Below are positions 14,991-23,099 of a stretch of DNA of 64,000 nt, piece by piece. A model generated the notes under the pieces. It ran no database searches, was not told the origin of the DNA, and saw nothing but the letters and a program-made list of their open reading frames with translations. The translations under genes were made by a program, and so were the position numbers. The DNA lies in assembly GCA_022710975.1 (NCBI GenBank), contig JAKLGA010000006.1:62001-126000 (forward strand), in the 5' to 3' direction. Numbering within the stretch: the stretch's first letter is position 1; each line of letters starts with the position of its first letter. Source of the stretch: Myxococcota bacterium (GTDB lineage: Bacteria; Myxococcota; B64-G9).

Positions 14991-15062
14991 GGTGATCTGA
15001 GCTTCCAGTGAAGTCGGGTGGAGTTGTTCGCCGGTGATCTGCGCCGGGAGTGAAGTGGGGTG
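14991..15062. repeat. Two imperfect 30-nt direct repeats
   Basis: Copies at 14991-15020 and 15033-15062 share GGTGATCTG at the left and AGTGAAGT followed by GGGTG at the right, with 6 mismatches in 30 positions and a 42-nt offset. They lie in the 228-nt space between the ankyrin gene and the hybrid kinase. They may be a remnant of a small tandem repeat or a pair of regulator sites. Confidence 0.6.
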
Positions 15063-15112
15063 AGGTCCTGGGTCCTCCGGCAGGGGGTCCGGGCCGGTGT
15101 CCCGTCGATTGA

Positions 15113-15140
15113 TTGCGGTGAAGCCGCCCTGTGTTACCAT
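15113..15140 (+). promoter_or_regulatory. Weak candidate promoter of the kinase operon
   Basis: TTGCGG (15113-15118) and TACCAT (15135-15140) are 16 nt apart, upstream of the GGGAGA site (15147-15152) and the ATG at 15162. Both boxes deviate from consensus. Confidence 0.35.
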
Positions 15141-15161
15141 GGCCTCGGGAGACACCTGCGC

Positions 15162-18100
15162 ATGGGCGAAAACCGCTACCGCATCCTGGCCGTGGACGAC
15201 GAGGAGGACGGGCTCGACGTGCTCCAGCGCGTGCTGGAGACCGAGTACGAGGTGCTGTCCGCCCGGAGCGGGGCCGAGGCCCTGGCGCTGCTGCGCCAGC
15301 ACCACGTGGACCTGCTGATCACCGACCAGCGCATGCCCCAGATGACCGGCATCCAGCTCATCGAGGAGGCCCGGAAGCTCCAGCCGGACATGGTGCGCAT
15401 CATCCTGACCGGCTACACCGAGCCGGCCGACCTCATCGACGCCATCAACCGCGGCGAGGTGTACCGCTACCTGACCAAGCCCTGGGACATCCAGGACCTG
15501 CTGCTCACCATCCGCCACGGGCTGGAGAGCTACCAGCTCCGGCGGGACAAGGAGCGCCTGACCGCCGACCTCGAGCTCAGGCTCAACGCCATGAGCCTGT
15601 TCCTCGACCTCAGCCGCGACGCCGCCAAGGCCGGCACCCACCAGGAGCTGGTCGAGGCGGTCATGCGCTACCTGCCCTCGGTGGTGGACTTCGACCTGGC
15701 CGCCGCGCTGGTCGAGCAGGACGCCGGCCGGCGCTCGCTGCTGCACCTGCACTGCCGGCGGCCGCTCCACCAAGAGGTGCTGCAGGCCGCCCGGGTCGAG
15801 GTGCTGGCCGCCTACAACGCGCTCGGCGGCAACGCGCTCGACGAGAAGGGCCTGGTGCTGAAGATCACCGGCGACACGCGCGCCCCGGAGGGCGGTGCGG
15901 AGGAGTTCGGCTCCACGGTCCAGGTGGTGCTGCGAGACGAGCGCGGGCCGGTGGGGCTCATCCGGCTGAGCGCCGCGCCGGCGCACGTTTTCCGCGACGA
16001 CACCCGGCAGCTCCTGGACGTGCTGGCCAACCACACCGCAGCCATCGTGCGCAGCCTGCGCGAGCAGCTGCGCGGGGAGCAGCACCGCCTGGAGCTCATG
16101 GTCCACAGCCTGGCGGACGGCGTCATCATGGTGGACGAGCGCGATCGGGTGTTCGTGATCAACCCGGCCGCCCGGCGGCTGCTGCACCTGTCGCCCGACG
16201 CGCCCGTGGACACGCGCTACCTCAAGGACACGCTGGGCTTCTACCCGTTCGACCTGGTGCGCGGCTGGGCCGCGCGCGAGCCCTCGGTGGTCAAGGAGGA
16301 GATCCAGGTCTTCGACCGCGCGCTGCACTCGATCGTCTCCCCGGTGCTGCTCGACGACCGGCTGGTGGGGGTCGCGGTCGTGCTGCGCGACATGAGCGAG
16401 GAGAAGGCCCTCGAGGACCGCAAGGAGGAGTTCGTCTCCATCGTCAGCCACGAGCTGCGCACGCCGCTCACCAGTATCGGCGGCGCGCTCGACCTGCTGC
16501 TGCACCGCTACGCCGGCGAGATCAACCCCAAGCAGGAGCGCTACATCAGCCTGGCCAAGGGCAGCTGCGACAAGCTCAACACCATCATCGACGATCTCAT
16601 CGATCTGAACCGCTACGCCAAGGGCAAGCTGGAGATGCAGCCCGGCCGGGTGCTGCTCGGCCAGCTCGTCCAGGAGGCCTGCGACAACTACCAGGCCGCG
16701 GCCGTCGAGCGGGAGGTGCGCCTCGTGGTGGAGGGGGGCGCCGAGCCGCTGTGGACCTGGGCGGATCGCAACCGCCTGCACCAGGTGCTCAACAACCTGC
16801 TCTCCAACGCGCTGAAGTTCACCAAGCCCGGCGGCCGCATCTGCGCGCGCGTGTTCCGCTCGCCGGCCCTGCCGGGCTTCGCGGCCGTGGGGGTGTCGAA
16901 CGACGGCGACGAGATCGCCGAGCAGGATCAGGAGCGCATCTTCGAGAAGTTCGAGCAGGCCCGGCACTCGCGCCAGAGCGGGGTGAGCGGCTCGGGCCTG
17001 GGGCTCAGCATCTCCAAGGGCATCGTCGAGGCGCACGGGGGGCGCATCTGGGTGGAGAGCGGCCGCGGGCAGGGCACGCAGTTCCTGTTCACCCTGCCGC
17101 TCCTCTCGGTCCAGGCGGGCGTGGCCGAGGCGCCCCCGCTGGAGCCGCCGCTCGCGGCCGTGGAGGCGGTGCGCTACAAGGTCCCGCCGCGCCTGCTGGT
17201 CGTGGACGACGACGAGACCACCACCTTCGTGATCAAGGGCGTGCTCATGGCGCGCGGGTACAGCGTGCTGGTGGCCCACGACCACCGCGACGCCCTGCGG
17301 CTGGCCCGCGAGCGCCACCCCGATCTCGTCATCATGGACATCCGCATGCCGCAGCTCGACGGGCTGCAGATCACCGACATCCTGCACCACGACCCCGAGA
17401 CCCGGGAGATCCCCGTGCTGGTGCTGAGCGTCCTGTCCTCGGAGGAGGAGGCCTACCGCGTGGGCGCCTCGGCCTTCCTGAGGAAGCCGGTCGAGCTCGA
17501 GCAGCTGGACGAGACCGTCAACCGGCTGCTGGAGCAGCGCAACCTCGTCCGCCGCCGTTACAAGGTCATGGTGGTGGACGACGATCCCGCCATCCGCGCC
17601 GTCTCCAAGGAGCTGCTGGAGGGCCAGGGCTACGCGGTGCTGGAGGCCGAGAGCGGGACCCAGGCCCTGGAGCTCCTGACCCGCCACCCGGTGGACATCG
17701 TGCTGCTCGACGTGATGCTGCCCGACTACGACGGCTTCCAGATCACCGAGCGCATCCGCGCCCAGCGCAACCTGGCCGATCTGCCCATCATCTTCGTGTC
17801 CGCGCGGGGGCAGACCGCCGACAAGGTGCGCGGGCTGCGCGCGGGCGGCGACGACTACGTGGTGAAGCCGTTCGACGCGCTGGAGCTCGGCGCCCGGGTC
17901 GAGTCGGTGCTGCAGCGCAAGGAGCGCGAGCAGGACTCGAGCCCGACCACCAAGCTGCCCGGGAGCGTGGCCATCGACCGCGAGATCCACAAGCTGCTGG
18001 GGGCTGGCCAGCCCTTCAGCCTGTGCTACCTCGACCTCGACAACCTGAAGGCCTTCAACGACTACTACGGCTACGCCAAGGCGGACGGGGTCATCCACCA

Positions 18101-18520
18101 GACCGGCGATCTCATCCGCAAGGCGGTTGAGCAGCACGGGCAGGCCCAGGACTTCGTAGGGCACGTGGCCGGCGACGACTTCGTGCTGATCACCCACCCG
18201 GAGCGGCTGGCCGCCATCGCCGGGGAGGTCATCCAGACCTTCGACCGCCTGATCCCGCTCTACTACCACCCGGACGATCAGGCCCGGGGGTACATCGAGA
18301 CCGAGGACCGCTTCGGGGTGATGCGGCGGTTCCCCATCATGAGCATCTCGCTGGCGGCCGTGCACGTGCGACCCGGCGGCGCCCGCAACCACGCCCAGAT
18401 CGCCGCGCGGGCCGCCGAGCTCAAGCGCAAGGCCAAGGCGATGCCAGGCAGCGTGCTGGTGGAGGGCCAGGTCGAGCGGGAGGAACCAGCGGGCACCCCG
18501 GGGTGTCCCGCGGCCGAGAC

Positions 18521-18524
<4 letters not shown>
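15162..18524 (+). CDS. Hybrid histidine kinase with three receivers and degenerate GGDEF
   Basis: A 1120-residue cytosolic signalling protein without membrane spans. Order of domains: receiver 1 (DD at 12-13, phospho-acceptor D55); a GAF-like region (about 150-300); PAS (about 308-410); HisKA with H430 in VSHELRTPLTS; HATPase (N box LNNLLSNALKFT, then GSGLGLSISKGIV); receiver 2 (D726); receiver 3 (D850); and a C-terminal diguanylate-cyclase-like domain (YLDLDNLKAFNDYYGY) whose active-site motif is AGDDF (1003-1007) instead of GGDEF. That motif predicts weak or no c-di-GMP synthesis; the domain may instead sense a nucleotide. The start is supported by GGGAGA at 15147-15152. The final TGA overlaps the next ATG (ATGA), so the two kinases are translationally coupled and probably act in one pathway. 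Confidence 0.9.
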
Positions 18525-21378: not shown

Positions 21379-21407
21379 TTGACGAGCGCGCCCGTTGCCC
21401 GTACACT
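21379..21407 (+). promoter_or_regulatory. Sigma-70 promoter ahead of the riboswitch
   Basis: TTGACG (21379-21384), 17-nt spacer, TACACT (21402-21407). The predicted transcription start near 21414 lies just before the structured leader, so it would be transcribed in full. Confidence 0.8.
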
Positions 21408-21430
21408 GGAATCAGAAAAGTTGCGGAGTG

Positions 21431-21528
21431 TTGCCATCCGAAAAGGCAATCCGGGCGAAGGCCCGGTGCGCAAAGCTCCTGACCCCGCGGAAACGAGTGC
21501 GGGGGAGATGGGCTGCCGAAGATGGCGA
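21431..21528 (+). ncRNA. GEMM-I-like riboswitch (cyclic dinucleotide sensor)
   Basis: A 98-nt leader element with the GEMM-I (c-di-GMP-I) layout. P1: TTGCCATC (21431-21438) pairs along its full length with GATGGCGA (21521-21528), including one G-U. Then AAAAGGCAAT (21441-21450); P2: CCGGGC (21451-21456) with GCCCGG (21461-21466) around a GAAG loop; then the signature CGCAAAGC (21469-21476); P3: CCCCGC (21483-21488) with GCGGGG (21499-21504); and a 3' GGGCTGCCGAA (21510-21520) whose TGCC can pair with GGCA (21445-21448). GEMM-I RNAs bind c-di-GMP, and some deltaproteobacterial variants prefer cGAMP. The loop GAAG rather than GAAA is a deviation. It lies between a good promoter and a secreted beta-propeller gene and is followed by a possible terminator. 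Confidence 0.8.
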
Positions 21529-21548
21529 GAAGAGAAAGAAGTCTTGCG

Positions 21549-21582
21549 CGCGGCCGAACCCTCTCGGGGGGCGGCCGCGTTT
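21549..21582 (+). terminator. Possible expression-platform hairpin of the riboswitch
   Basis: CGCGGCCG (21549-21556) pairs with CGGCCGCG (21572-21579), an 8-bp GC-rich stem with a 15-nt loop, followed by TTT then a short interrupted T-rich run. It lies 20 nt after the aptamer and about 50 nt before the start codon, which suits conditional termination, though the T-tract is short. Confidence 0.5.
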
Positions 21583-21632
21583 CGCGTTTCCGGGGTGTCG
21601 CAGGTGGCAGAGTTGCGGGAAGGAGAGCGGAC

Positions 21633-23099
21633 ATGACTCGAAGCGCACGCGTGGCGGTGGTGCTCTCGGCTCTGGTTCTGCTCTTGCCGGGGCTGGCCTC
21701 CGAGGCGATGGCCTATCGCTTCGAGGGCGTGGAGAGCCAGCTCACGACCGATCTGGCGGATCAGTTCGATCCGTCCATCTCGGGCGCCTTCACCGTGTAC
21801 ACCGATCGGCGCAACCCGGACGCCGACATCTACCTGTTCGACATCGAGGCGGGCATCGAGACCCAGGTCACCTCGGGCGGCGGCGATCAGATGCTCAACG
21901 ACGTGTCCGGCTCGCGGGTGGTGTACACGGACTTCGGCGCCGGCAACGCCGACGTGTTCCTGTACGACGCGGCCACCGGCGTGACCACCCGGCTGACCGA
22001 GGACCCGGCCAACCAGCGGCGCCCGGCCATCTCCGGTGACCGGGTGGTGTACGAGGACGACCGCAACGGCGACCTGGACATCTACCTCTACGACCTGGCT
22101 GCGGGCGTGGAGCAGCGCCTGACCGACGATCCCGCCATCCAGCGCAAGCCCTCCATCTCGGGCGACAGGGTGGTCTGGGAGGATCACCGCGCCGGCAACG
22201 CGGACATCTACCTCCACGATCTCGCGACCGGACTCACCACCCCGCTGGTGGCCGACCCGGCCGACGACCTGGAGCCGGACCTCGACGGCGACATCCTGGC
22301 CTTCACCTCGAACCGCTCGAGCGTGGGCGACGTCTTCGCGCTCCACCTGCCGACGGGCACGCTGCGGCAGATCACCAGCGGCGACAGCTACGAGCGCAAC
22401 CCCTCCGTCTCGGGCGGCTACGTGGCCTACGAGAGCTACCAGGACGGGGACGCGGACATCTGGCTCTACAGCCTGGTGCTGGACACGGCCGAGCAGGTGA
22501 CGATCGATCCGGCCGAGCAGTACCTGCACGATCTGTCGGGCAACCGCATCGTGTACACCGACAGCCGCAACGGCAACCTGGACATCTACCTGTTCGAGTT
22601 CGTGTTCGACGACCCGGCGCCCGGCGGCGAGGGCTGCGGCGATCCAAAGGCCCGGCTGCTGTTCGGCCCCAAGGTGTACACCCGGGGCCACGGCGCGCCG
22701 CGCTGGGTGCTGGATGGCTTCGCCAGCCACGAGCTCGAGGGCCAGACGGCCTTCGTGTGCATCCAGAACGGCGACCTCGACGGCGACCAGCGGGTGACCT
22801 CGGCCCTGGTGTCGCTGAACGACGTGCTGGTGGCCGGCCCCGGGGACTTCGGCCAGCAGGTCGAGGCGCTCGAGCTGCCCGTCGACCTGGCGTGCCTCAA
22901 CGCCCTCGGGGTCCAGCTGCGGGGCGAGCCCGGCGCCACGTTCACCCTGAGGGTGGTGGCGCCGCTGCCCGAGGACGCGGTCATCATCACCTGCGCGACC
23001 GCCGATCCCTCCCGGGGTGGCGCGGGCACGGCGCTGGCCTTCTTCGGCCTGCTGGGCCTGCCCGTGGGCCTGGCGCTGGCGCTGCGCCGCCGTCGCTGA
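21633..23099 (+). CDS. Exported TolB-like beta-propeller protein with C-terminal anchor
   Basis: A 488-residue secreted protein. ATG 21633 follows AAGGAG at 21620-21625 and starts a signal peptide (MTRSARVAVVLSALVLLLPG, cut near AMA). About seven propeller blades follow, each with a motif such as GDRVVWEDHRAGNADIYLHD or SGNRIVYTDSRNGNLDIYLF (residues about 30-330). A second beta region containing two Cys follows. The C-terminus has a sorting-type tail: Gly-rich GGAGTALAFFGLLGLPVGLA, then an Arg cluster (RRRR). Propellers of this type bind proteins or glycans at the cell surface. The upstream GEMM-like riboswitch suggests expression is set by a cyclic dinucleotide, as is common for surface proteins. 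Confidence 0.85.
   Translation: MTRSARVAVVLSALVLLLPGLASEAMAYRFEGVESQLTTDLADQFDPSISGAFTVYTDRRNPDADIYLFDIEAGIETQVTSGGGDQMLNDVSGSRVVYTDFGAGNADVFLYDAATGVTTRLTEDPANQRRPAISGDRVVYEDDRNGDLDIYLYDLAAGVEQRLTDDPAIQRKPSISGDRVVWEDHRAGNADIYLHDLATGLTTPLVADPADDLEPDLDGDILAFTSNRSSVGDVFALHLPTGTLRQITSGDSYERNPSVSGGYVAYESYQDGDADIWLYSLVLDTAEQVTIDPAEQYLHDLSGNRIVYTDSRNGNLDIYLFEFVFDDPAPGGEGCGDPKARLLFGPKVYTRGHGAPRWVLDGFASHELEGQTAFVCIQNGDLDGDQRVTSALVSLNDVLVAGPGDFGQQVEALELPVDLACLNALGVQLRGEPGATFTLRVVAPLPEDAVIITCATADPSRGGAGTALAFFGLLGLPVGLALALRRRR

Follow-up and report, generated by a model that had tools for sequence, protein, structure and literature searches.

The window analysed here, a 64,000-nt (64 kb) stretch of DNA from a bacterium of the phylum Myxococcota, contains a gene for a secreted beta-propeller protein that is preceded by a promoter, a structured leader, and a ribosome-binding site. 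The features of this locus are listed below (window positions).

21379..21407, + strand: sigma-70-type promoter TTGACG-17-TACACT, recognized by its pattern; similar boxes are found at the same place in orthologous leaders
21430..21450, + strand: predicted ligand-free hairpin GUUGCC/GGCAAU, covering the P1 5′ strand and G20-C22 (z −3.3, 0 of 200 shuffles)
21431..21438, + strand: P1 5′ strand UUGCCAUC, pairing with 21521-21528; its inner part varies compensatorily
21435..21520, + strand: c-di-GMP-I (GEMM-I) aptamer, covariance-model match to the complete RF01051 model
21445..21447, + strand: equivalents of G20-G21-C22, the ligand-selectivity base and the first P2 pairs, of the canonical c-di-GMP type (alignment and literature mapping)
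21448..21450, + strand: 5′ side (AAU) of the P2 internal loop, with the 3′ side (UGC) at 21467-21469; lineage-specific subtype
21451..21466, + strand: P2 hairpin with a GAAG loop at 21457-21460 (direct reading and covariance model)
21470..21476, + strand: GCAAAGC core with the equivalents of G45, C46, A47, and A48 and the start of P3 (invariant alignment columns)
21474..21514, + strand: P3, outer part 21474-21477/21511-21514 and inner part 21483-21488/21499-21504, without the usual tetraloop receptor
21511..21516, + strand: GGCUGC, comprising the P3 3′ strand and the C92 equivalent (21516); also the proposed 5′ half of an antiterminator, with the predicted partner 21550-21555
21521..21528, + strand: P1 3′ strand GAUGGCGA, partner of 21431-21438
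21549..21589, + strand: probable intrinsic terminator with the stem CGCGGCCG/CGGCCGCG and the tail UUUCGCGUUU (weak U-tract); the hairpin is also present in seven other leaders of the family
21620..21625, + strand: RBS AAGGAG, 7 nt upstream of ATG 21633
21633..23099, + strand: secreted beta-propeller gene (PD40; TIGR04275 repeats) with a signal peptide and a C-terminal hydrophobic-RRRR tail (domain matches and orthologs)

The promoter that a sequence-only reading had proposed was found to be unique within 400 bases (one TTGACG-17-TACACT pattern, 0.0 expected in shuffles), and the orthologous leaders of the family contain −35 boxes resembling TTGACA and −10 boxes resembling TATACT/TATTCT, located at a similar distance. 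The gene had been described as encoding a beta-propeller, and the domain searches agreed, with PD40 matches and seven matched TIGR04275 repeats (285 bits, cut-off 85) in a protein that is secreted. An alternative start codon, ATG 21522, was rejected in favor of ATG 21633 on the basis of the RBS, the signal peptide, and the orthologs.

Full orthologs of the propeller protein are encoded in five of the nine genomes of the family, the window's own included, and the other four are 57–65% identical. The genome G004 contains only the start of an ortholog, at a contig end (MTNVKFF...APAEAYRFEG). The aptamer is present in the leader of the propeller gene in all six genomes in which the gene was found (own, G004, G005, G006, G007, and G008). 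The aptamer and the propeller gene lie downstream of genes for a histidine kinase and a FecR-domain protein in the window's own genome, G004, G005, G006, and G007, but not in G008, which indicates that the aptamer is associated with the propeller gene and not with the cluster. Further aptamer copies in G001 and G002 are located in front of other large, secreted-looking proteins. The window also encodes, at 15060-18524, a hybrid histidine kinase that carries three receiver domains and, at its C terminus, a degenerate GGDEF domain (AGDDF, no RxxD I-site); its ortholog adjoins the riboswitch gene at the same place in G006 and G007.

Searching the window against all Rfam families with cmscan yielded a match to RF01051 (c-di-GMP-I/GEMM-I) at 21435-21520 on the + strand, which comprised the complete model and, with 45.9 bits (E 8.8e-6), exceeded the gathering score of 35. 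The suspicion of a GEMM-I-like aptamer was thus confirmed by the covariance-model search, and no RNA family other than RF01051 reached its threshold anywhere in the 64 kb. A match of asR3 at 21545-21583 had 16 bits versus a gathering score of 46 and was regarded as due to chance. A genome-wide search for a second GEMM-I copy in the 7.1 Mb genome found none, and this single copy points to one direct RNA target.

The promoter, P1, P2 with the GAAG loop, the core, and P3 were all located where the sequence-only reading had placed them. P1 is completely paired (21431-21438/21521-21528, 8 bp) and is extended by C21439-G21518 and G21440-C21517 beyond an AA bulge. The last base of J1/2 is G21445, the G20 equivalent. 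P2 consists of G21446-C21471 and C21447-G21470, the internal loop AAU/UGC, a stem of six pairs, and the GAAG loop; it is followed by A21472, the A47 equivalent. P3 is formed by the outer pairs AGCU/GGCU and the inner pairs CCCCGC/GCGGGG, and C21516 is the C92 equivalent, as mapped from G74-C75-C76 of 4YAZ. Direct reading of 21379-21636 showed that both the CGCAAAGC core and GGGCTGCC are present in the leader. The GAAG loop of P2 is not a GNRA loop, and the alignment has deletions in P3 at the receptor positions of the Rfam consensus; a GNRA tetraloop with a P3 receptor is common but not universal in RF01051 and was not used as an exclusion criterion.

The element was compared with known members of the class. 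It shares with Vc2 of V. cholerae (GEMM-Ia, RF01051) the complete model match, the P1/P2/P3 layout, and the equivalents of G20, G21-C46, C22-G45, A47, and C92. In contrast to Vc2, the P2 internal loop is AAU/UGC instead of AAA/GAC, the loop is GAAG instead of GNRA, the P3 receptor is missing, and J1/2 is, by our count, shorter by one base. The family c-di-GMP-I-GGC (RF03167) belongs to the same clan and is represented in further genomes of the phylum (L002 and L004), whereas the window copy scored best with RF01051.

Sequence comparison within the family revealed compensatory changes in every helix. In an alignment of nine same-family aptamers with their P1 flanks, 9 of the 21 pairs showed two-sided changes, compared with 4.0 in shuffles (0 of 500), and the correct pairing register was far above all slid registers. 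A model built from the family recovered the copy of G004, which is outside the alignment and had not been used (E 2.9e-17; its P1 is compensated, UCAU/AUGA), as well as a further weak copy in G002. In six genera, the aptamer is conserved in front of the orthologous gene. The P1-P2-P3 junction is supported by covariation. Taken together, the E-value, the compensatory changes, and the conservation upstream of an orthologous gene exclude chance, and the element is almost certainly a c-di-GMP-I aptamer.

The ligand contacts were mapped onto the window bases with the Vc2 numbering and with PMC6274999, PMC9262584, and PMC7288161. All equivalents of the selectivity contacts of Vc2 are canonical for c-di-GMP, namely, G20 (21445), G21-C46 (21446-21471), C22-G45 (21447-21470), A47 (21472), and C92 (21516). 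The natural ligand is therefore very probably c-di-GMP, and a GGDEF-domain search of the window's own genome gave 23 hits, of which many have the canonical Asp. One GGDEF protein, L034 (G000:C24:334090-334566), combines an intact GGEEF motif with an Asn at the position of PleD D344.

The sequence-only reading had taken the GAAG loop and the ACGC-to-GCGC change as signs of a variant with another ligand preference, such as cGAMP. Both changes are present, but an altered ligand is not supported by them. The GCGC change is outside the published ligand contacts, is accompanied by an A-to-U change on the opposite strand, and recurs in GEMM-I copies from further families of the phylum; it is part of a lineage-wide subtype of the P2 internal loop (AAU/WGC). 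Relatives, which likewise lack the usual P3 receptor, have several different non-GNRA P2 loops, GAAG among them. The contacts of the cGAMP riboswitch (4YAZ) are G8, A9, A11, A12, A14, C15, G40-A42, and C75, a list that does not include the internal loop. A change of G20 to A confers cGAMP binding (PMC7288161; PMC9262584). Among the fetched GEMM-I copies of the phylum, G20 was present in 31 of the 32 parsed aptamers, and the AAU/WGC internal loop accompanies G20 in f8, f13, and the window's own family. The internal-loop position adjoining the P2 stem is U-A, C-G, or G-U among members and U-U in the window, so that this position can be read as an extension of P2 by one pair that is specific to the lineage.

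A cGAMP-selective (GEMM-Ib-like) or dual-specificity riboswitch nevertheless has some points in its favor, as the P2 loop and the internal loop are changed and one GAF-GGDEF protein of the genome has a Ser at the Hypr position; among solved structures, the best match of this protein is GmGacA (6d9m, E 2e-42). This protein, L044 (G000:C1:113664-114131; ORF 910-2049 of L044), carries GHLRGS, in which the Ser occupies the position of PleD D344, and, by the serine criterion of PMC9140294 and PMC6456294, is a candidate Hypr cGAMP synthase. The overall fold is also shared with the cGAMP riboswitches of Geobacter (GEMM-Ib; 4YAZ, pilM, pgcA). However, these have an A at position 20 (A14 in 4YAZ) and C15-G40 as the first P2 pair, whereas the window has G21445 and G21446-C21471, i.e., the c-di-GMP orientation; the changed bases are absent from the listed ligand contacts, and the terminator of the window, in contrast to GEMM-Ib, does not overlap the aptamer. 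The phylum does include A20 copies, in another family, a type to which the window copy does not belong. Given the position mapping and the spread of the changes among relatives, cGAMP specificity on the grounds of GCGC and GAAG was rejected, and cGAMP as a sole or second ligand is improbable. It is likewise improbable that the phylum-wide AAU/WGC subtype of GEMM-I, with its re-paired P2 internal loop and, in the window's family, no tetraloop-receptor docking, has an affinity or selectivity so shifted that some members answer cGAMP from a host Hypr GGDEF despite G20. As a separate observation, the genome G012, of another family, contains two copies with an A at the position-20 equivalent, L026 (253-340, −) and L029 (1501-1588, −), which are candidate cGAMP-type riboswitches, and also two G20 GEMM-I copies.

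A GC hairpin and possible terminator had been proposed upstream of the RBS. A terminator-type hairpin was indeed found at 21549-21579 (−25.5 kcal/mol versus a shuffled mean of −13.0, sd 2.7), about 40 nt upstream of the RBS; the hairpin is strong, and its U-tract UUUCGCGUUU is poor. Terminator-type hairpins are located 17–30 nt past the aptamer in eight leaders of the family, six with clear U-tracts and two (window and G005) with weak ones. The hairpin of G002c was no better than shuffles, and no clear terminator was seen in the G001 leader.

The leader of the surface beta-propeller gene thus likely contains a riboswitch of class I for c-di-GMP; with somewhat less assurance, we infer that it is a transcriptional OFF switch acting by termination. 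Without ligand, GUUGCC/GGCAAU (21430-21450) would form as RNA polymerase advances, and GGCUGC/GCGGCC (21511-21516/21550-21555) would then capture the 5′ arm of the terminator and allow read-through. Folding of the truncated window transcript gave this second pairing, which is predicted to open P3 and hide the C92 equivalent. With c-di-GMP bound, P1-P2-P3 would hold these strands, the hairpin at 21549-21579 could form, and the propeller gene would be downregulated, so that high c-di-GMP would mean less surface propeller protein. In the window, the antiterminator was modestly better than shuffles (z −2.15, 5 of 200), and its fold was ahead of the aptamer fold by 6.5–8.8 kcal/mol once the 5′ arm was transcribed; the gap decreased to 2.4 once the terminator was complete. 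The terminator is also present in the ligand-free equilibrium fold, and therefore, the switch would have to be kinetic. In relatives, the 5′ arm and loop of the terminator are complementary to the 5′ part of the aptamer; p values, given without correction for how many leaders and segments were tried, were at most 0.05 in four of the eight leaders, i.e., G006 (11 bp, CAUCCGAAAAG/CUUUUCGGAUG, 0.008), G008 (0.018), G002c (0.006), and G007 (0.05, borderline). The corresponding pairing was not significant in the window, G005, G002a, and G002b.

The same aptamer and ligand might instead operate an ON switch or another expression platform, e.g., via Rho or translation. The weak U-tract of the window and an antiterminator pairing not clearly above chance are compatible with this alternative, which is possible but clearly less likely, as the position of the hairpin is conserved in eight leaders, six of them with clear U-tracts, and the RBS is distant from the hairpin. 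Moreover, the terminator stem uses no aptamer strands, unlike the ON terminator of the pilM kind, so both can coexist, and this non-overlap fits an OFF switch of the Cd1 type with a competing antiterminator better than the pilM type. In the Cd1 OFF switch of C. difficile, aptamer and terminator coexist, and the pilM ON switch differs in this respect (PMC9262584). As in Cd1, coexisting aptamer and terminator would compete with an antiterminator that unfolds the pocket; the platform sequence is different, and for the window, the direction is one that we infer. Replacement of the tetraloop adenines abolished binding by Cd1 (PMC9262584), and the non-GNRA P2 loop without a visible receptor counts against a c-di-GMP OFF switch in the window. 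The missing GNRA loop and receptor, the U-U in the extended P2, and the weak terminator tail would also suit a decayed, non-functional remnant. This is very unlikely, as the pocket bases are intact, the full promoter-aptamer-hairpin-RBS layout is present, compensatory changes have occurred, and the aptamer has been retained with all six orthologs. The element is a genuine, conserved, and ordinary c-di-GMP-I riboswitch with small lineage-specific differences.

In a bacterial family that has been little studied, the riboswitch connects one conserved gene for a surface beta-propeller with c-di-GMP signalling, and it suggests that lineages can lose the GEMM-I tetraloop-receptor contact and yet retain the ligand pocket. 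Beyond these two points, a well-studied class gains one more routine member. Elsewhere in the phylum, six GEMM-I copies were found in the genome G030, with pairs on the same contig about 0.6–1.4 kb apart (L022/L025 on G030:C479; L030 on G030:C523). At L007, two Acido-Lenti-1 RNA matches (1334-1378, +; 1184-1229, −) are located close together upstream of a GEMM-I copy.
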